A model generated the notes under the pieces. It had not been told where the DNA came from. It ran no database searches and saw only the letters and a program-made list of their open reading frames with translations. 64,000 nt of DNA from Pseudanabaena sp. PCC 6802 (lineage in GTDB: Bacteria > Cyanobacteriota > Cyanobacteriia > Pseudanabaenales > Pseudanabaenaceae), in assembly GCF_000332175.1 (NCBI RefSeq), contig NZ_KB235914.1, positions 3,840,868-3,904,867 of the forward strand, given 5' to 3'. Below, one piece after another: positions 1,594-9,229 of this stretch; within the stretch, counting starts at the first letter, position 1; each line of letters starts with the position of its first letter. The translations under genes were made by a program, and so were the position numbers.

Positions 1594-1684
1594 GAATGCT
1601 AGTGCGCTCCATTGCTTAGAGAGTGAAACTGGCTCGACGAACTTGGGGGGCGATCTGTAGTGTTGCCAACAAGCAAATGTATAG

Positions 1685-1757
1685 CCCCTTACCCAAGAAT
1701 CGAACTTGGTACGCCGTCCTTCGGAAAGACAGCTCTGCAAAATCCAGCAGGCAAGGG
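1685..1757 (-). tRNA. tRNA-Arg(CCG)
   Basis: A seven-pair acceptor (CCCTTGC with GTAAGGG), T-arm CCAAG-TTCGATT-CTTGG and anticodon loop TTCCGAA are present. The anticodon stem has G-U pairs and the D-arm is weak. This is the last gene of the array in the direction of transcription. Confidence 0.8.
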
Positions 1758-1761
1758 AGAA

Positions 1762-1831
1762 CCCCTCTGGGTGGAATCGAACCACCGCATCCGACGTTCG
1801 TAGCATCAGCGCTAGCTCCACTAGCAGAGGG
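1762..1831 (-). tRNA. tRNA-Arg(ACG)
   Basis: The acceptor is CCCTCTG/CAGAGGG, the T-arm GGTGG-TTCGATT-CCACC and the anticodon loop CTACGAA. It is only 70 nt, and the D-arm is replaced by an unusual GCTAG/CTAGC hairpin with a five-base loop. Confidence 0.75.
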
Positions 1832-1834
1832 AAA

Positions 1835-1908
1835 TCCACCGAGGAGGTACTGCCCCTCCTGACAACACAGTTATCGGCTGTGCGCGTCGCTATTTCCGCC
1901 TTCGGTGG
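1835..1908 (-). tRNA. tRNA-like element with GAT (Ile) anticodon and no TPsiC loop
   Basis: A full clover-leaf can be drawn: acceptor CCACCGA/TCGGTGG (seven pairs), anticodon arm CACAG-CCGATAA-CTGTG, and a T-stem GGAGG/CCTCC enclosing the loop GGCAGTA instead of TTCRANN. The D-stem has only three pairs, there is no GG in the D-loop, and position 33 is C. It fills exactly the gap between two ordinary tRNAs. It is either a decayed tRNA-Ile or a tRNA mimic. Confidence 0.55.
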
Positions 1909-1911
1909 GAA

Positions 1912-1995
1912 AGGAGAGTAGAGGAATCGAACCCCTAGAGCGTTACCCTACCCTAGTTTTCAAGACTAGTTGCCAACCATTTAGCGGTACTCTCC
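1912..1995 (-). tRNA. tRNA-Ser(TGA)
   Basis: Acceptor GGAGAGT/ACTCTCC, anticodon arm CTAGT-CTTGAAA-ACTAG and a long class II variable arm (84 nt in total) are present. One T-stem pair is mismatched. Confidence 0.9.
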
Positions 1996-2002
1996 ATTTG
2001 GG

Positions 2003-2075
2003 ATGTCTGGCCAGACTCTAACTGGCTAATACTGGATTCACAGACCAGCACCGCGATCGCTTTGGTCTCAGACAC
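2003..2075 (-). tRNA. Second tRNA-His(GTG)-like gene with altered T and D loops
   Basis: The first 50 bases closely follow the canonical tRNA-His at 2159-2234, with the same anticodon loop CTGTGAA. The stems have changed on both sides: D-stem GTC/GAC becomes ACC/GGT, and an acceptor U-A pair becomes C-G. The T-arm is GCCAG-TTAGAGT-CTGGC, so C56 is A. The D-loop contains GCGATCGC, so G19 is also A. This is a structure-preserving diverged duplicate. Confidence 0.65.
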
Positions 2076-2076
2076 A

Positions 2077-2149
2077 AGGGGATAGTGGGACTTGAACCCA
2101 CAACCAATCGCTTAAGAGGCGATCGCTCTGCCAATTGAGCTATATCCCC
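2077..2149 (-). tRNA. tRNA-Lys(CTT)
   Basis: Acceptor GGGGATA/TATCCCC, anticodon arm ATCGC-CTCTTAA-GCGAT and a canonical T-loop (TTCAAGT) are present. Confidence 0.9.
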
Positions 2150-2158
2150 AATAAAAAG

Positions 2159-2234
2159 GGTGCTTGACGGGACTTGAACCCGTTAACAACTGACTTCACA
2201 GGCCAGCGTCTCGACCGCTTTGACTTCAAACACC
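2159..2234 (-). tRNA. tRNA-His(GTG)
   Basis: The acceptor is GTGTTTG/CAAGCAC with an extra G(-1) opposite C73, the hallmark of tRNA-His. The anticodon loop is CTGTGAA, the T-arm ACGGG-TTCAAGT-CCCGT, and GG is present in the D-loop. Confidence 0.92.
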
Positions 2235-2240
2235 ATCAGT

Positions 2241-2313
2241 GGATTCTGGTCGGAGTCGAACCGACATCTTTCTACTTGCAAGGTAGACGCTTTCCCAGTT
2301 AAGCTACAGACCC
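2241..2313 (-). tRNA. tRNA-Ala(TGC)
   Basis: The anticodon arm is TCTAC-CTTGCAA-GTAGA and the T-arm GTCGG-TTCGACT-CCGAC. The acceptor has one mismatch and a G-U pair. Confidence 0.85.
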
Positions 2314-3119
2314 ATAACGAGGACGGCAGGACTCGAACCTGCACGAGTCACTTTAGAAGAGTGATGCTCTGTCCGTTGAGCTACATCCCCATCGATCCTG
2401 GCAAGAATCATTTTGATTTCTTTTTTGTTACACTGACGTTTGCTGGCAGCATAAACCGCCCTACCATATTCTTGCTCTGCCACTTGATGTGTAATCCACT
2501 CTTTGAGAATTCCATCCCTTACTTTTTCCAAAGGAGGGAAGTCTCGAAACGTCACAATATACCAAACCCCATCCAACTTGCGATAGTAGTGATTTGCATC
2601 AATTCTCACGATATCGTCTCGCTGTTGGGGTTTTATCATTGGTTTGGGCTTGGGCGATCGCACTGCCAAACAAAGAAGGCCCGTATCGGGATGAATATAA
2701 AATTGGCTTCGATCCCACCACTTAGTAAGTTGACAATTTCGGTAGCCCCTACAGGTTTTGCGATAGGGAATGCCCTCGACGATCTTGACATGTCTCTCCA
2801 CATAGTCCCAAAGATGATCGATAACGTGCTGACCGATGGTAGTGCTGCGATCGAGCCGCTGACAGAGATCCCGATAAACATCATTCCAAGGTTGGCCCAC
2901 CTTGGACAGCAACAGGCGGCGCAAAGGGCCAAGATGGTCGGAGAGCCACTTAGTCTTATTCCTTACTTTAATCAGATAAGGACGGAACAGTCCGTCATCA
3001 GATGCTTCTTGGGAGAGCTTATAGAGCATCTTCTTAGTGCCTTTGATGCTTTTAGATCTGATTCTCATGCCGCCTCGCGGTCGCTCAATAACGATCTCAT
3101 TTAATCGATGTTCGCTCAT
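2304..3119 (-). CDS. Unrecognised protein encoded inside the tRNA array
   Basis: This open frame of about 271 codons starts at ATG (MSEHRLNEIVIERPRGG). It is basic and rich in Arg, Trp and Tyr. Visible patches include GQPWNDVYRDLCQRLDR, HVIDHLWDYVERHV, FYIHPDTGLLC and WYIVTFRDFP. I do not recognise a characterised family; similar short proteins of unknown function are, from memory, scattered in several bacterial phyla. The frame runs through the whole tRNA-Arg(TCT) and stops in the 5' end of tRNA-Ala, so the last roughly 30 residues are translated tRNA. The real protein may end near 2390, or the mRNA and tRNA may compete through tRNA processing. Codon use resembles the chromosome. No strong ribosome site is seen. 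Its location suggests a passenger or a factor linked to array tRNAs; function is unknown. Confidence 0.65.
   Translation of the reverse strand: MSEHRLNEIVIERPRGGMRIRSKSIKGTKKMLYKLSQEASDDGLFRPYLIKVRNKTKWLSDHLGPLRRLLLSKVGQPWNDVYRDLCQRLDRSTTIGQHVIDHLWDYVERHVKIVEGIPYRKTCRGYRNCQLTKWWDRSQFYIHPDTGLLCLAVRSPKPKPMIKPQQRDDIVRIDANHYYRKLDGVWYIVTFRDFPPLEKVRDGILKEWITHQVAEQEYGRAVYAASKRQCNKKEIKMILARIDGDVAQRTEHHSSKVTRAGSSPAVLVMGL
2318..2390 (-). tRNA. tRNA-Arg(TCT)
   Basis: Acceptor GGGGATG/CGTCCTC, anticodon arm TCACT-CTTCTAA-AGTGA and T-arm GCAGG-TTCGAGT-CCTGC are present. The reading frame of the protein gene upstream (start at 3119) continues through the whole of this tRNA. Confidence 0.9.
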
Positions 3120-3147
3120 AGTTTTACCTGTTTTGATATAAAAGATA

Positions 3148-3219
3148 TAGTCCCGGCAGGATTCGAACCCGCAATCCATTGCTTGTAGGGCAAGTGCTCT
3201 CCCGTTGAGCTACAGGACT
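3148..3219 (-). tRNA. tRNA-Val(TAC) with C33
   Basis: The acceptor is AGTCCTG/CGGGACT and the anticodon loop CCTACAA. Position 33, nearly always U, is C, and the T-stem has one mismatch. Confidence 0.8.
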
Positions 3220-3248
3220 ATGTTTGTTAAGTTCCACGAAAAGTGGAA

Positions 3249-3320
3249 AGCGAGTGAAGGGATTTGAACCCTTGCGCTGAGACTGGCAGACTCAGATGCT
3301 AGCCGCTACATCACACCCGC
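3249..3320 (-). tRNA. tRNA-Gly(GCC)
   Basis: Acceptor GCGGGTG/CACTCGC, anticodon loop CTGCCAG and T-arm AAGGG-TTCAAAT-CCCTT are present. Confidence 0.9.
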
Positions 3321-3329
3321 AAATTTCCA

Positions 3330-3401
3330 AGCGGATAATGGGAGTCGAACCCATATCAAGAGGTTGGAAGCCTCACATGCTTTCCTTTGCACCATATCCG
3401 C
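3330..3401 (-). tRNA. tRNA-Gly(TCC)
   Basis: Acceptor GCGGATA/TATCCGC, anticodon arm GAGG-CTTCCAA-CCTC and T-loop TTCGACT are present. Confidence 0.9.
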
Positions 3402-3575
3402 ATGATGGTTGCTGACCGTCCAGCCTGGTGGAAATCTCAAGGTTTTATGGAACCTGCAACCAATCTCCAGGATTTAATCGAGGTTTATGGGTTAACCTTT
3501 TAGACTTGATTAGCTAAAGATTGAGACATGACCCTTGAGTGTTAAGCGTTGAGCTTTAAACTTTAAGGTTCATGG
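3402..3575. other. 174-bp gap inside the array, no clear gene
   Basis: No canonical tRNA fits here. A short hairpin AGGTT/AACCT near 3440 and an inverted GGTTGC/GCAACC pair hint at a decayed tRNA, but an acceptor, anticodon arm and T-arm cannot be combined into one structure. Confidence 0.4.
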
Positions 3576-3647
3576 AAGATGGAGCTGGAGTCGAACCAGC
3601 AACTTCACGCTTTCATGCATGACGCTCAGCCATTGAGCTATCCATCT
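3576..3647 (-). tRNA. tRNA with eight-base anticodon loop, identity unresolved
   Basis: The acceptor AGATGGA/TCCATCT is perfect, with D-stem GCTC/GAGC and T-arm GCTGG-TTCGACT-CCAGC. The anticodon stem TCATG/CGTGA encloses eight bases, CATGAAAG. Counting from the only U gives GAA (Phe); other registers give CAT or TGA. A normal tRNA-Phe(GAA) exists at 6314-6388. Confidence 0.7.
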
Positions 3648-3694
3648 CAAACCATAAATTTAGAGATTTTCAGACGGCCAGCAATATTCAAACT

Positions 3695-4324
3695 TTAATC
3701 TGGTACTTCTACCATAGTTCTAGCGTTACTAATAGAAAGAACGCGATCGACAGTAGATTTAAACTCTTCTATGAAGAATTGCCTTCTCTCAGTATCTTCT
3801 GCCAGACGGACTGGATCGAGCAATTCGATGCCCTCACGAGCAAGGAAGCTATCAGCCAGATTTTGATATTTCTCAGAAGAAGCGTTTTTTCCCAAGACTT
3901 CGATCGCCAGTTTATCAAGACGCTCTTTGACACGCGCTTGAGCTACGTCGTAATCCTTGCGGGCACGAGCATAGGCTGACTGCATGGTTCTGAGAACCCC
4001 TTCGTAGTACGCGATGAAACTCTTCATCTCAATTGCTTCGGCGACAGTCATCTCTTGACCTGCCACAGTTACCATCGTTGCAGCGTTTGAGAGAACCAGC
4101 GATCGCTTAATTCCCCGCCGTCTGACAATCAGGGCATCTACCTTTTGCAGAGCCGCTCTTGCCTTGGTTTGATGCTCTTCGCGAGTTTTATAACCAGTTG
4201 GCACCTTACCCACTTCAACTACAGCGATCAGCGTGTTATTATCCAGCTCGATTGTGGCAGAAGCAATCCGCTTTTCAAGCAAAGTCAGTTCTGCCAATGC
4301 ATCTGTGACTGTCATAATTGTCAT
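3695..4324 (-). CDS. Phage-like small coiled-coil protein of unknown function
   Basis: This is a 209-residue protein with a very strong ribosome site (AGGAGG, seven bases before the ATG at 4324). It is helical and charged. The N-terminal segment (about 1-60) is followed by a patch VDALIVRRRGIKRSLVLSNA, then VTVAGQEMTVAEAIEMK and a long helix to about 150. The pattern 'RR..IK..IV.SNA.T.V.IAG.EMTVAEAIE' recalls, from memory, small proteins encoded by phages and prophages; I cannot name a domain with certainty. It lies between tRNAs on the same strand and would support a phage-related origin of the array. No catalytic motif is visible. Confidence 0.75.
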   Translation of the reverse strand: MTIMTVTDALAELTLLEKRIASATIELDNNTLIAVVEVGKVPTGYKTREEHQTKARAALQKVDALIVRRRGIKRSLVLSNAATMVTVAGQEMTVAEAIEMKSFIAYYEGVLRTMQSAYARARKDYDVAQARVKERLDKLAIEVLGKNASSEKYQNLADSFLAREGIELLDPVRLAEDTERRQFFIEEFKSTVDRVLSISNARTMVEVPD

Positions 4325-4408
4325 CTCCCCACCTCCTGTTTAGATTTCGGTTTTTTGTTCCGTACGCATTTTTTGTACGTCAAGCGTTGCTTTATGAGTT
4401 GGCAACAG

Positions 4409-4481
4409 AGCTGGTGACAGGAATTGAACCCGTAACCCATCGCTTACAAGGCGATCGCTCTTCCAATTGAGCTACACCAGC
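4409..4481 (-). tRNA. tRNA-Thr(TGT)
   Basis: Acceptor GCTGGTG/CACCAGC, anticodon arm ATCGC-CTTGTAA-GCGAT and T-loop TTCAATT are present. Confidence 0.9.
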
Positions 4482-4490
4482 ATATTTGGT

Positions 4491-4562
4491 GGCAGGGGCA
4501 AGATTCGGACTTGCCGATCTCGACGTTATGAGCGTCGCGAGCCGCCATTGCTCCATCCCTGC
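4491..4562 (-). tRNA. tRNA with CAT anticodon (Met or Ile2)
   Basis: Acceptor GCAGGG/CCCTGC (six pairs), D-arm GAGC/GCTC and anticodon arm GACG-CTCATAA-CGTC are present. The T-loop is TCCGAAT, with U55 changed to C. It does not carry the three G-C pairs typical of initiator tRNA. Confidence 0.75.
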
Positions 4563-4564
4563 AA

Positions 4565-4638
4565 AGGGTCATACTGGGATCGAACCAGTCTAGTCTCGCT
4601 TAAAAGGCGAGCGCATCCATCCACTCTGCCAATGACCC
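4565..4638 (-). tRNA. tRNA-Lys(TTT)
   Basis: Acceptor GGGTCAT/ATGACCC, anticodon arm CTCGC-CTTTTAA-GCGAG and T-loop TTCGATC are present. Confidence 0.9.
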
Positions 4639-4649
4639 ATTTTTATCAA

Positions 4650-4724
4650 TCCGAGTGGTAGGATTTGAACCCACGACCTTCTGCTCCCAAAGCAGTCGCG
4701 CTCGCCAAGCTGCGCCACACCCGG
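4650..4724 (-). tRNA. tRNA-Pro(TGG), first copy
   Basis: Acceptor CCGGGTG/CACTCGG, anticodon loop TTTGGGA and T-loop TTCAAAT are present. Confidence 0.9.
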
Positions 4725-4729
4725 ACAAT

Positions 4730-4800
4730 ACTCCCGACAGGATTTGAACCTGTAAAACCCAGCCTCTCATACTGGTGTGTATACCATTCCACCACGGGAG
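4730..4800 (-). tRNA. tRNA-Leu(GAG) with short variable arm
   Basis: The anticodon arm is CCAGT-ATGAGAG-GCTGG. The D-arm (GGTGGAATGGTATACAC) is leucine-like, but only five bases (GTTTT) separate the anticodon stem from T-stem ACAGG. The expected class II long arm is absent, and base 73 is U. Confidence 0.8.
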
Positions 4801-4804
4801 CAAA

Positions 4805-4879
4805 TACCCCTGACAGGACTCGAACCTGCAAAAACACAAGGTCTAAGCTTGCGACGGTTTCCAATTACGTCACAGGGGT
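4805..4879 (-). tRNA. tRNA-Leu(TAG) with short variable arm
   Basis: Acceptor ACCCCTG/CAGGGGT, anticodon arm GCAAG-CTTAGAC-CTTGT, a short variable region and A73 are present. No long class II arm can be drawn. Confidence 0.8.
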
Positions 4880-4883
4880 AAAG

Positions 4884-4956
4884 TCGGGATGGTTGGATTT
4901 GAACCAACGACTCCATGCTCCCAAAGCATGGCTTCTGGCCGCTGAATTACATCCCG
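4884..4956 (-). tRNA. tRNA-Pro(TGG), second copy
   Basis: Acceptor CGGGATG/CATCCCG, anticodon arm CATGC-TTTGGGA-GCATG and T-arm GTTGG-TTCAAAT-CCAAC are present. Confidence 0.9.
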
Positions 4957-4960
4957 AAAT

Positions 4961-5031
4961 ACTCCTGACAGGATTTGAACCTGCACTAACTGGTATCTGA
5001 TGCCAGTGCCTCTGCCTTTGGGCTACAGGAG
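4961..5031 (-). tRNA. tRNA with CAG anticodon (Leu), short variable arm
   Basis: The body is CTCCTGTAGCCCAAAGGCAG, shared with the next two genes of the array. The anticodon loop ATCAGAT is flanked by CTGGC/ACCAG with one mismatch. The variable region is short and base 73 is U. Confidence 0.7.
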
Positions 5032-5082
5032 CGTAGTTGGATACTCCTAGTGGGAGTCGAACCCACATCGAACTGGGTTTAA

Positions 5083-5957
5083 GAACCCATTTAGGAAGTC
5101 GCAGTTGCCAGATTTCTTAGCATTTTGCGGATTAAAGCCAAGTAAATAAACGATTCAGACATTTGCTCATAAAATTCATAATCCTTGCTTAGTCTACGAC
5201 AATTACCTAACCAAGCAAAGGTTCGCTCTACCACCCAACGCTTTGACTCCACTACAAAACCTTTCTGATTGTCTGCCCGTTTGCTAACTTCCCAAAGCCA
5301 TCCGAAGTTGTCGTTGACCCATTGTGTGATTTCATCACCAGAGAATCCAGCATCAACCAGAATTTTCTCTAATCGTGGTAATGGAGATGTGAGATTCTGT
5401 AACAACTGCTTAGCTCCTGCTCTTTCACCGATGTTAGCTGCACACACCAACACCTTTACAACTAAGCCCAAGGTGTCAACCATAGCGAAGCGTTTTCTGC
5501 CCTTGATTTGCTTACCGCCATCAAAACCTCGACTGCCCGCACTTTCTGTTGTCTTCACACTCTGGCTATCGATACTCACCAAGCTTGGGGTCGCCTCTTT
5601 ACTAACCTTTTCCCTAAATTGTTGGCTCAATTTGCGATTAATCTCCTCCAGTAGCCCAGTTCTTTCCCACCTTTGCCAGTAGAAATAGACCGTTGAGTAA
5701 GGCGGAAAGTCATGGGGTAGATTCTGCCATGTACAACCATTTTTGAGTATATAGAAAATGGCATTCAGTAACTCTCGCATATTTGTTTTGGGTGGCCTAC
5801 CCCATTTTGATGGTTTGGGTAGCATGGGTGCGATAATTTCCCATTCTTGGTTGGATAAATCGGTATTATAGGATCGGCGCATCTCTTCAGGTTTATACTA
5901 GACTTCATCAGTATTTATACCTGCTTTTGGTGCGCCTTTTACTTCCTAAATGGCTTC
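5083..5957 (-). mobile_element. IS5-family insertion sequence, 875 bp
   Basis: The element has 17-bp terminal inverted repeats matching at 16 positions (left end GAACCCATTTAGGAAGT, right end the complement of GAAGCCATTTAGGAAGT). A 3-bp target duplication TAA lies at 5080-5082 and 5958-5960. A TNA-type duplication fits the ISL2/IS1031 groups of IS5. The single transposase gene fills most of it. The target lies inside the anticodon loop of tRNA-Leu(TAA). Confidence 0.9.
5091..5882 (-). CDS. IS5-family transposase
   Basis: This 263-residue DDE transposase appears intact. The N-terminal domain (about 7-80: LSNQEWEIIAPMLP, then NAIFYILKNGCTWQNLP) is the IS4/IS5 helix-turn-helix region (DUF4096-like). 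The catalytic fold follows, with a first Asp in SIDSQSVK (about 105), a second in ILVDAGFSGDE (about 177), and the C-terminal Y/R-rich signature VVERTFAWLGNCRRLSKDYE that carries the catalytic Glu. It acts on the element's own 17-bp ends. With both ends intact and target repeats preserved, the insertion looks recent and potentially active. Confidence 0.95.
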   Translation of the reverse strand: MRRSYNTDLSNQEWEIIAPMLPKPSKWGRPPKTNMRELLNAIFYILKNGCTWQNLPHDFPPYSTVYFYWQRWERTGLLEEINRKLSQQFREKVSKEATPSLVSIDSQSVKTTESAGSRGFDGGKQIKGRKRFAMVDTLGLVVKVLVCAANIGERAGAKQLLQNLTSPLPRLEKILVDAGFSGDEITQWVNDNFGWLWEVSKRADNQKGFVVESKRWVVERTFAWLGNCRRLSKDYEFYEQMSESFIYLALIRKMLRNLATATS

Positions 5958-6004
5958 TAAGCCAGTCGCCTCTGCCAGTTGGGCTATAGGAGCATAGTTC
6001 CAAT

Positions 6005-6075
6005 ACTCCTGGTGAGATTTGAACTCACACTTGACTACTTTTGAGATAGTCGCCTCTGCCGTTGGGCTACAGGAG
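6005..6075 (-). tRNA. tRNA-Leu(CAA) with short variable arm
   Basis: The body is CTCCTGTAGCCCAACGGCAG, with anticodon arm ACTAT-CTCAAAA-GTAGT and T-arm GTGAG-TTCAAAT-CTCAC. Only about five bases form the variable region, and base 73 is U. Confidence 0.8.
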
Positions 6076-6080
6076 CAAAC

Positions 6081-6153
6081 TCGGAAGGAAGGAATTGAAC
6101 CTCCAAACATCGCGTTCAAAGCGCGATCGCTTTGCCTATTTGCGTACTTCCGA
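6081..6153 (-). tRNA. tRNA-Gln(TTG)
   Basis: Anticodon arm TCGCG-CTTTGAA-CGCGA and T-loop TTCAATT are present; the T-stem has one weak pair. Confidence 0.88.
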
Positions 6154-6157
6154 TTAA

Positions 6158-6232
6158 CTGCCGAGGTAGGGTTTGAACCTACACAACTCCACTTTCAGAG
6201 AGTGGGGACTTTGCCAATTCGTCTACTCGGCA
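6158..6232 (-). tRNA. tRNA-Gln(CTG)
   Basis: Acceptor TGCCGAG/CTCGGCA, anticodon arm CCACT-CTCTGAA-AGTGG and T-loop TTCAAAC are present. Confidence 0.9.
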
Positions 6233-6236
6233 CCAA

Positions 6237-6308
6237 CTGCCTCGGTAGGACTCGAACCTACATCTTTCCGCTTAACAGGCGATCGCTCTGCCATTGAGCT
6301 ACAAGGCA
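6237..6308 (-). tRNA. tRNA-Asn(GTT)
   Basis: Acceptor TGCCTTG/CGAGGCA, anticodon loop CTGTTAA and T-loop TTCGAGT are present. Confidence 0.88.
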
Positions 6309-6313
6309 ATAAG

Positions 6314-6388
6314 CCCCCCAGATCCGATTTGAACGGATGACTTCCTGTTCTTCAGACAGGCACTCTCACCGAACTGAGTTACCGGGGG
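6314..6388 (-). tRNA. tRNA-Phe(GAA)
   Basis: Acceptor CCCCCGG/CTGGGGG, anticodon arm CCTGT-CTGAAGA-ACAGG and T-loop TTCAAAT are present. Confidence 0.9.
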
Positions 6389-6391
6389 ATA

Positions 6392-6481
6392 AGGAGAGGG
6401 AGGGATTTGAACCCATCGACGGTCTTTTGAACCGTTCCTTCTTAGCAGGAAGGTGCTATAAGCCACTCAGCCACCTCTCCC
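6392..6481 (-). tRNA. tRNA-Ser(GCT)
   Basis: Acceptor GGAGAGG/CCTCTCC, anticodon arm CCTTC-CTGCTAA-GAAGG and a long class II variable arm (ACGGTT...GACCGT) are present. Confidence 0.92.
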
Positions 6482-6485
6482 AAAA

Positions 6486-6567
6486 TGGGGCGGGTTGGAT
6501 TTGAACCAACGTGGGATTAACCGGATGTTTTACAGACATCTTGCTTCAGCCGCTTGCATACCGACCC
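6486..6567 (-). tRNA. tRNA-Tyr(GTA)
   Basis: The anticodon arm is GATGT-CTGTAAA-ACATC, with a class II variable arm and T-arm GTTGG-TTCAAAT-CCAAC. One acceptor pair is mismatched. Confidence 0.9.
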
Positions 6568-6575
6568 ATAGTTGA

Positions 6576-6689
6576 TATAGCGGTTTTCAGATCGGAGTTA
6601 GGTAGGGGGTTTGGGGGCGTTGCCCCCAAGAAGGGGTTCCACCCCTTCACCCCATTAATAAAACCCGTTCTCAATTGAAAAGCGCTATA
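6576..6689 (+). repeat. Miniature inverted-repeat element A, copy 1
   Basis: This 114-bp element is bounded by TATAGCGGTTTTCAGAT and the partly complementary CAATTGAAAAGCGCTATA. A central G-rich hairpin (GGGGGCGTTGCCCCC and GGGGTTCCACCCC) is visible. It sits between two tRNAs and abuts tRNA-Glu. Other copies lie at 7065, 9261, 22395 and 60492. Confidence 0.85.
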
Positions 6690-6761
6690 GTGCTGACGGG
6701 ATTTGAACCCGCAATCGATGCTTTGAAAGAGCACCCGCTTCAACCATTTGCGTACAGCACT
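6688..6761 (-). tRNA. tRNA-Glu(TTC)
   Basis: Acceptor AGTGCTG/CAGCACT, anticodon arm GTGCT-CTTTCAA-AGCAT and T-loop TTCAAAT are present. Confidence 0.9.
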
Positions 6762-6800
6762 ATGAAAACTTTCTCGCGTTCTTTCATTGCCATATCTCAC

Positions 6801-6869
6801 GTAGGGGCAGGTTTAGCCAGGTACTGTCGGATATTGCCAATAACCTTTATGCAAAACCTGCCCCCTACA
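6801..6869 (+). repeat. Inverted repeat family C, copy 1
   Basis: GTAGGGGCAGGTTTAG at the left and AAAACCTGCCCCCTAC at the right form a palindromic unit of about 70 bp. A related copy precedes trpC at 11188-11254, with similar outer flanks as well. Confidence 0.7.
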
Positions 6870-6908
6870 GCCATGAAATTTTTACGCTAAAAATATGAAA
6901 GAGAAATA

Positions 6909-6980
6909 CGCAGGAACCAGGACTTGAACCCGGAACATCAGTTTTGGAGACTGAGGTGTTGCCAATTACACCATCCCTGC
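6909..6980 (-). tRNA. tRNA-Trp(CCA)
   Basis: Acceptor GCAGGGA/TTCCTGC, anticodon arm TCAGT-CTCCAAA-ACTGA and T-loop TTCAAGT are present. Confidence 0.9.
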
Positions 6981-6987
6981 ATTTTGG

Positions 6988-7060
6988 TAGCAGTGGCGGG
7001 AGTCAAACCCACAACCTATCATCTTATGAGGATGCTGCTCTATCGTTGAGCTACACTGCC
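6988..7060 (-). tRNA. tRNA with CAT anticodon (Met or Ile2), second copy
   Basis: Acceptor GGCAGTG/CACTGCT and anticodon arm CATC-CTCATAA-GATG are present. The T-loop is TTTGACT, with C56 replaced by U. Confidence 0.8.
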
Positions 7061-7064
7061 ACTA

Positions 7065-7222
7065 TATAGCGGTTTTCAGATTGGAGTTAAGTAGGGGGTT
7101 TGGGGGCGTTGCCCCCAAGAAGGGGAGGCAGGGCGGTCTTGGGGGTTCCCCGCTAGAGCCACTGCCGTGTGGAACCCCTTCACCCCATCAATGAAACTTG
7201 TTCTCAATTGAAAAGTGCTATA
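7065..7222 (+). repeat. Miniature inverted-repeat element A, long copy
   Basis: This 158-bp copy has the same termini (TATAGCGGTTTTCAGAT, CAATTGAAAAGTGCTATA). An extra G/C-rich block of about 44 bp in the centre is also found in the copies at 22395 and 7672. Confidence 0.85.
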
Positions 7223-7226
7223 TCCA

Positions 7227-7300
7227 AGGCTGAGGTGAGATTTGAACTCACGCATAGAAGCTTTGCAGGCATCTCCCTTAAACCGCTTGGGTACTCAGCC
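7227..7300 (-). tRNA. tRNA-Cys(GCA)
   Basis: Acceptor GGCTGAG/CTCAGCC, anticodon loop CTGCAAA and T-arm GTGAG-TTCAAAT-CTCAC are present. Confidence 0.88.
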
Positions 7301-7306
7301 ATTTGG

Positions 7307-7380
7307 GAGCCTTGACGGGAGTTGCACCCGCTTCTTTCTGACTGAGAATCAGAACGACTTATCTGCTCGTCCACAAGGCT
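7307..7380 (-). tRNA. tRNA-Glu(CTC) with non-standard T-loop
   Basis: Acceptor AGCCTTG/CAAGGCT and anticodon arm TCTGA-TTCTCAG-TCAGA are present. The T-loop is TGCAACT, in place of TTCRANN. Confidence 0.75.
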
Positions 7381-7385
7381 ATCAG

Positions 7386-7459
7386 CGGGGGTAAGGAGAT
7401 TTGAACTCCCGATCTTCGGCTCGACAGGCCGCTGCTTTAAACCGCTAAGCTATACCCCC
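7386..7459 (-). tRNA. tRNA-Asp(GTC)
   Basis: Acceptor GGGGGTA/TACCCCC, anticodon arm CGGC-CTGTCGA-GCCG and T-loop TTCAAAT are present. It is the first tRNA of the array in the direction of transcription. Confidence 0.9.
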
Positions 7460-7876: not shown

Positions 7877-7901
7877 GTAATATACTGTAGTATATGTATT
7901 A
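7877..7901. promoter_or_regulatory. AT-rich palindrome upstream of the tRNA array
   Basis: ATATACTGTAGTATAT (7880-7895) is a near-perfect palindrome, bracketed by TGTAATA and TATTACA. A related palindrome, ATACTACACTTGTAGTAT, lies at 9857. It could be an operator for the array; this is inference. Confidence 0.35.
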
Positions 7902-8174
7902 CAAATTTGTCAATAGGTTTTGGAAATTTTTTTAGAAGATATTTGGAAGTCCCAAATTCACTATTTGGATTTCCTGTCCCTTGTAGGTGGTAGTGCTTCG
8001 TGCCCACCCTCCTGCGCGATTATTACGAGTTCGCATTAGATGGTTGCCACACGTTTATTAAGACACATATCTATCTAAGGGATTTGCGCAAAATAAGATG
8101 CCTGCGATGTGTTAGGCGATAGCCGTAATGCATCCTACGGTGGGGCATTATCTAACCGCATCTCCCTAATGTAG

Positions 8175-8698: not shown

Positions 8699-9229
8699 CT
8701 AGCTGTGGCTTCCCTTTTGTTCCCGCCAAAATTGTTCGGCAAAGGCAACTGTAGGATGTACGGGAGCTTTGGGCTTAGTTCGTAAGGTCATCCCTGCCTC
8801 GTGAGGCGTGCGATCGCCCTTGGACTGATTGCACCGCTCGCAGGCAGTGACGACGTTCTCCCATGTATGGGAGCCGCCTTTAGAACGGGGCAGCACGTGG
8901 TCGAGCGTCAGATGTTTTACACTGCCACAGTACTGGCAGGTGTGGTTGTCGCGCCGCAGTACCTCTTTGCGATTAACGGGTGGAACTCGCCACAGCCGCT
9001 CGGTTTTGCCAATCGTGAGACGGATATGCTCCGGTACGAATAGCACCAGGCGCGGTGCGATCACCTGCCAACCCCGATCGCCCATGTAACTTAGGGGTTC
9101 AGCACGACCTGCAATCAGAAGCGCAATCGCTCGTTTGATGTTGATTCGACAGATGGGCAGATAGTTTTGCGAAAATACTACTACCGTCTGTCGCAGTACT
9201 TCTGGTTCTAAATGTTTTGCCTGTGTCAC
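8699..9229 (-). CDS. HNH endonuclease
   Basis: This is a 176-residue protein starting at GTG (VTQAKHLEPEV). The N-terminal part (about 1-80) is the conserved cyanobacterial leader seen with these enzymes (QNYLPICRINIKRAIALLIAG). The HNH domain follows at about 88-140, with zinc ligands CQYC and CERC, the core LTLDHVLPRSKGG and the Asn/His pair of the beta-beta-alpha metal fold. Family members cut DNA and often occur as free-standing genes with no known partner. The predicted product is soluble. A miniature element lies about 30 bp upstream, in the region where a promoter would be expected. Confidence 0.9.
   Translation of the reverse strand: MTQAKHLEPEVLRQTVVVFSQNYLPICRINIKRAIALLIAGRAEPLSYMGDRGWQVIAPRLVLFVPEHIRLTIGKTERLWRVPPVNRKEVLRRDNHTCQYCGSVKHLTLDHVLPRSKGGSHTWENVVTACERCNQSKGDRTPHEAGMTLRTKPKAPVHPTVAFAEQFWREQKGSHS

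Follow-up and report, generated by a model that had tools for sequence, protein, structure and literature searches.

The closest described system is the trn operon of Anabaena sp. PCC 7120, which comprises 26 tRNAs on the delta plasmid, is silent in normal growth and is induced by translation inhibitors; its repressor, TrcR, acts at a TGTAGTAT site that covers the -10 box (PMC10272220). We compared this operon with a tRNA array in the window, by which we mean the whole 64,000-nucleotide stretch of Pseudanabaena sp. PCC 6802 that was analysed. The array and the features upstream of it are as follows:

1684–7459, minus strand: trn-type tRNA array with 32 ARAGORN tRNAs, the type-2 tRNA-His described below (the element) and an Ile(GAU)-like tRNA, broken by ORFs and an IS4/5-type transposase
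7884–7913, minus strand: putative promoter of the array (TTGACA-N18-TACAGT), whose sequence overlaps ATACTACA; the TrcR box TGTAGTAT is the reverse complement of this motif
8699–9229, minus strand: HNH endonuclease gene (Pfam HNH) lying upstream of the array, a neighbour shared with Nostoc and Tolypothrix plasmid arrays

Like the Anabaena operon, the array is long, lies on one strand, is redundant with the chromosomal tRNAs of the host (n = 42, including one canonical tRNA-His) and has a putative TTGACA promoter with a TGTAGTAT-type box. On the opposite strand, an exact match to the TrcR-box 8-mer lies at 7893 and overlaps the -10-like hexamer, and TGTAGTAT-type boxes were found upstream of 18 other arrays. 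The upstream HNH gene is a further likeness to Anabaena-type arrays: plasmids of Nostoc, Tolypothrix and Calothrix carry homologous arrays in which Arg(UCU)-Ala-His-Ser follow much the same order, and an HNH gene precedes most of them. By analogy, we infer that the array is a stress-type trn operon with TrcR-type regulation; the element would be excised from a long transcript whose synthesis is normally repressed at the TrcR-type box and takes place under translational stress. Unlike the Anabaena operon, the array contains a second, type-2 tRNA-His with A19/A56, and ORFs and a transposase interrupt it. We consider it probable that the element is a selected tRNA-His(GUG) of this stress-type operon, belonging to an array-specific paralogue lineage with a rewired 19-56 layer.

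Two ORFs inside the array (2304–3179 and 3695–4324, minus strand) had no Pfam match, and the transposase occupies 5091–5882. ARAGORN gave the tRNA at 3573–3647 (minus strand) a two-base anticodon in an odd anticodon loop, and this gene may be a Met tRNA or defective.

The type-2 tRNA-His gene and its missing G-1

An earlier note had described, at 2003–2075, a tRNA-His-like element in which G19 and C56 had both become A. Both changes were found, and the gene was placed on the minus strand at 2002–2075, the earlier interval being off by one. Its parts are listed below:

2002–2075, minus strand: type-2 array tRNA-His (GUG), nucleotide 1 at 2075 (pairing-based cloverleaf parser; R1 covariance model)
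2075–2069/2009–2003, minus strand: acceptor stem (cloverleaf parser)
2066–2050, minus strand: D-arm (cloverleaf parser)
2053–2063, minus strand: D-loop AAAGCGATCGC, with G18 (2058), A19 (2057) and U20 (2056), and with the HIP1 octamer inside it at 2053–2060
2048–2032, minus strand: anticodon arm, anticodon GUG at 2041–2039 (cloverleaf parser)
2026–2010, minus strand: T-arm (cloverleaf parser)
2002, minus strand: discriminator C73 (cloverleaf parser)
2015–2021, minus strand: T-loop TTAGAGT, with A56 at 2019
1999–2001, minus strand: encoded CCA after C73 (2001–1999; sequence CCCA), associated with the U-1 lineage
2076, minus strand: position -1, a U, so that no G-1 is encoded

The parser, which uses base pairing and U33 without a loop consensus, gave a complete cloverleaf with GUG and U33. 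It returned 24 units in the array, 0 in 5 shuffles and 0 on the opposite strand. Nineteen of the 20 stem pairs are standard, the single mismatch being U31/U39, and A19 and A56 stand in place of the canonical G19/C56, while G18, U54, U55 and A58 are retained. The R1 covariance model, of which the element sequence itself is part, scored it at 86.8 bits. ARAGORN made no call on the element, and the Rfam tRNA model did not match it even in a lax 851-base search up to E = 1; no match supports an Rfam RNA of another kind. Minimum-energy prediction for the unmodified element yields a fold other than the cloverleaf, which is partly so for the neighbouring tRNA-His too. The element is a complete, pairing-supported tRNA-His gene overlooked by gene finders, and standard tRNA finders thus miss conserved members of trn-type arrays.

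Compared with a canonical bacterial tRNA-His, the element has the same GUG, C73 and 7/5 acceptor and T-stem, and differs in the missing G-1, in A8 instead of U8, in a 3-bp D-stem with an 11-nt loop, and in A19/A56. A8 replaces the usual U8 in nearly all array tRNA-His loci.

The histidine determinants of bacteria are G-1 and C73 (PMC9976931). The element has C73 with U-1, and the host genome contains one hisS above the cut-off and no Thg1, which rules out rescue of the missing G-1 by Thg1. Because the determinants include a G-1 that is neither encoded nor supplied by Thg1, HisRS charging of the element is likely to be weak, and it would probably decode His codons inefficiently or conditionally, not as the main tRNA for them. 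The same missing G-1 and Thg1, together with the altered elbow and the precedent of non-canonical tRNAs (PMC7609411), would also fit a non-decoding or regulatory role for the tRNA, charged or not, in which it acts with a dedicated partner, as the earlier note had suggested, and is free of EF-Tu and ribosome constraints. We regard this as quite unlikely: GUG, U33 and C73 are kept in the type-2 lineage (in a scan that partly selected for the anticodon loop), a housekeeping tRNA-Arg conserved in the family has A56, and no partner gene was found.

Ancestry and stem pairing

The element has a canonical tRNA-His as its neighbour in the same array:

2159–2234, minus strand: type-1 array tRNA-His with G-1 (2234) and G19/C56, without encoded CCA (ARAGORN, Rfam, alignment)

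The first 50 bases of the element had been said to align with this gene, and 37 of those 50 columns do match (2159–2233), as do 13 of the last 23, giving 68% identity overall. By similarity to the element, however, the neighbour ranks only about 120th of 134 relatives; the nearest is a type-2 gene of Scytolyngbya (89% identity), which likewise has A19/A56. The contrast between 68% and 89% therefore indicates, from sequence comparison, that the element is an old paralogue from an array-specific type-2 lineage, not a local or recent duplicate. Tandem duplication of the neighbouring gene is ruled out by its similarity rank and its position in the tree. The earlier description of a duplicate thus holds for an old paralogue and fails for a recent copy of the neighbour, and the change at 19 and 56 is not private to this copy, since other species share A19/A56.

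We collected 135 usable distinct array tRNA-His sequences by a pattern scan of genome contigs, which partly selected for the anticodon loop, and by covariance-model searches of whole genomes. These array sequences scored above 72 bits, versus about 60 for chromosomal tRNA-His. Type 1 has G-1, usually without an encoded CCA (108/112), and type 2 has U-1, usually with an encoded CCA (18/24); the window array holds one of each.

Comparison with the neighbour showed compensated pair changes at 5-68 (U-A to C-G), 10-25 (G-C to A-U) and 11-24 (U-A to C-G), which bears out the compensation reported earlier for the acceptor and D-stems; the T-stem differs from that of the neighbour, yet is fully paired. 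Three A19/A56 relatives are separated from the element by 7, 9 and 14 stem substitutions, which alter both bases of 3, 4 and 6 pairs and leave 19 of 20 pairs standard; the probability of this outcome under random substitution was 0.0018, 0.0002 and 0/20,000, respectively. The covariation test proposed in the earlier note was positive: in 29 array His sequences, paired cells make up 97.9%, double changes occur at 13 of 21 pairs, and 0 of 500 shuffles matched this result, the shuffles ignoring relatedness.

These results bear on the possibility that the array is dispensable, that the element is a tRNA copy decaying within it, and that drift altered 19 and 56. Decay would agree with the full chromosomal tRNA set of the host and its one canonical tRNA-His, with broken members in the arrays (such as the truncated tRNA-His in L014), and with the U31/U39 mismatch and the lack of G-1. 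We nevertheless judge it unlikely. The paired stem changes among the A19/A56 relatives argue against decay and for selection, as the earlier note had argued from compensation; the family covaries; A19/A56 recurs in four genomes at different array positions; and the stems stay paired in the relatives, where random decay would have left them unpaired. Simple decay is therefore disfavoured by the stem-pair tests.

Positions 19 and 56 and the HIP1 octamer

The G19-C56 pair is regarded as almost invariant in tRNAs, with mitochondria and some special cases as the exceptions. The 135 array tRNA-His sequences comprised 121 with G19/C56, 5 with A/U, 4 with A/A, 2 with C/G and one each with A/C, A/G and G/U. 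The table of non-G19 against non-C56 was 12/1/1/121 (p = 4e-15, a value that overstates the case because the sequences are related). About 12 changes at these positions were placed on a weakly supported tree (73 columns, few supported branches), on which supported branches give only 2 independent pairs, mostly in the expected direction. The four A19/A56 sequences may represent a single event. A further candidate base pair, 20a-59 (C/G vs G/C in the alignment), follows one or two clades and hence is not claimed.

Four of the 11 A19-bearing sequences have A56, where pairing would predict U56, and A19 with A56 forms no Watson-Crick pair. The earlier note had taken the D/T contact as absent. Given that 19 and 56 covary, that G18/U55 and U54/A58 are retained and that A56 pairs with U19 in a housekeeping tRNA-Arg of the family, the contact is better read as rewired than as lost. 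The element would still fold into an L, with G18-U55 and U54-A58 holding the elbow and the 19-56 layer possibly rebuilt either as A19·A56 or as U20-A56 with A19 flipped out. Like tRNA-Pyl and type II mitochondrial tRNAs, the element departs from G18-G19/TPsiC; unlike them, it alters 19/56 only, as a covarying pair, and keeps G18, U54, U55, A58 and the cloverleaf (PMC7609411).

The cyanobacterial HIP1 octamer GCGATCGC is exact in the D-loop of all four A19/A56 members and of two A19/U56 members, and U20 is present in all four A19/A56 members because their D-loop holds HIP1. The window contains 109 HIP1 copies versus about 0.8 expected, and G19A completes the octamer from GCGGTCGC. A likely route would be G19A through HIP1 gain followed by a change at 56; the published HIP1-gain ratchet concerns mainly outer bases, and the internal base altered in this D-loop lies outside its direct scope (PMC4390886). 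The exact D-loop octamers and the HIP1 excess could also mean that A19 is a mere by-product of HIP1 accumulation at the DNA level, with A56 unrelated. This appears very unlikely, as 19 and 56 covary without HIP1 as well (C19/G56 in L021 and L067, A19/U56 in L171) and in other tRNAs.

Elbow exchanges in other tRNAs

Among 916 assignable array tRNAs, the corresponding 19/56 table was 15/3/11/887, in which the script misassigned some Arg(UCU) registers, so that correction would strengthen the association. A19-U56 was found in array Arg(ACG), Met(CAU) and Ala(UGC), and also in array Arg(UCU) members if the D-loop register is read by hand, the automatic register for their nine-base loops being one base off in several rows. 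Two members of the window array show such exchanges:

6988–7060, minus strand: array tRNA-Met(CAU) with an exchanged A19/U56 pair, in the same array as the element
7304–7380, minus strand: array tRNA-Glu(CUC) with A18 and G55, T-loop TGCAACT (A18 register inferred)

Array Cys, Gln and Gly tRNAs (L072, L077 and L092) likewise have A18 with G55 and a TGCRANT T-loop, which suggests paired change at the 18-55 contact of array tRNAs as well.

The chromosomal tRNA-Arg(UCU) has U19-A56, with a T-loop (TTAGAGT) identical to that of the element, in the host and nearly all family relatives examined (L316–L332, L334 and L336), whereas the relatives examined outside the host family have GG and TTC. Here the plain U19-A56 pair differs from the A19 U20 of the element. 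Since this tRNA-Arg is conserved, A56 is compatible with an ordinary tRNA when position 19 is matched. Other gene families thus support 19/56 covariation independently, and the chromosomal Arg(UCU) is the strongest outside support.

The wider pattern of covarying elbow contacts in trn-operon tRNAs is a more interesting result than the single element. Natural exchanged 19-56 versions (A-U, C-G, U-A and A/A) exist in bacterial tRNAs, one of them in a housekeeping tRNA-Arg, and they make the sequence requirement of the elbow testable. No report of covarying elbow contacts in trn-operon tRNAs was found in the literature searched; work on the D- and T-loops of trn-operon or suppressor tRNAs may hold prior notice. 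An improbable extension is that cyanobacterial trn operons form a parallel tRNA set, induced under stress, in which repeated covarying exchanges have rebuilt the elbow (18-55, 19-56 and 54-58), possibly as an escape from nucleases or regulators targeted at its canonical form, with the type-2 tRNA-His and a GGCAGTA tRNA-Ile as extreme members. The latter is located in the window as follows:

1835–1908, minus strand: Ile(GAU)-like array tRNA with T-loop GGCAGTA, on which ARAGORN makes no call

Ile(GAU)-like tRNAs with this T-loop were found in dozens of other cyanobacterial arrays. GGCAGTA was exact in 81 of 83 raw matches, the search pattern having fixed most of the loop, and across 17 aligned members the T-loop was invariant while the stem pairs varied. 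The window copy has C33.
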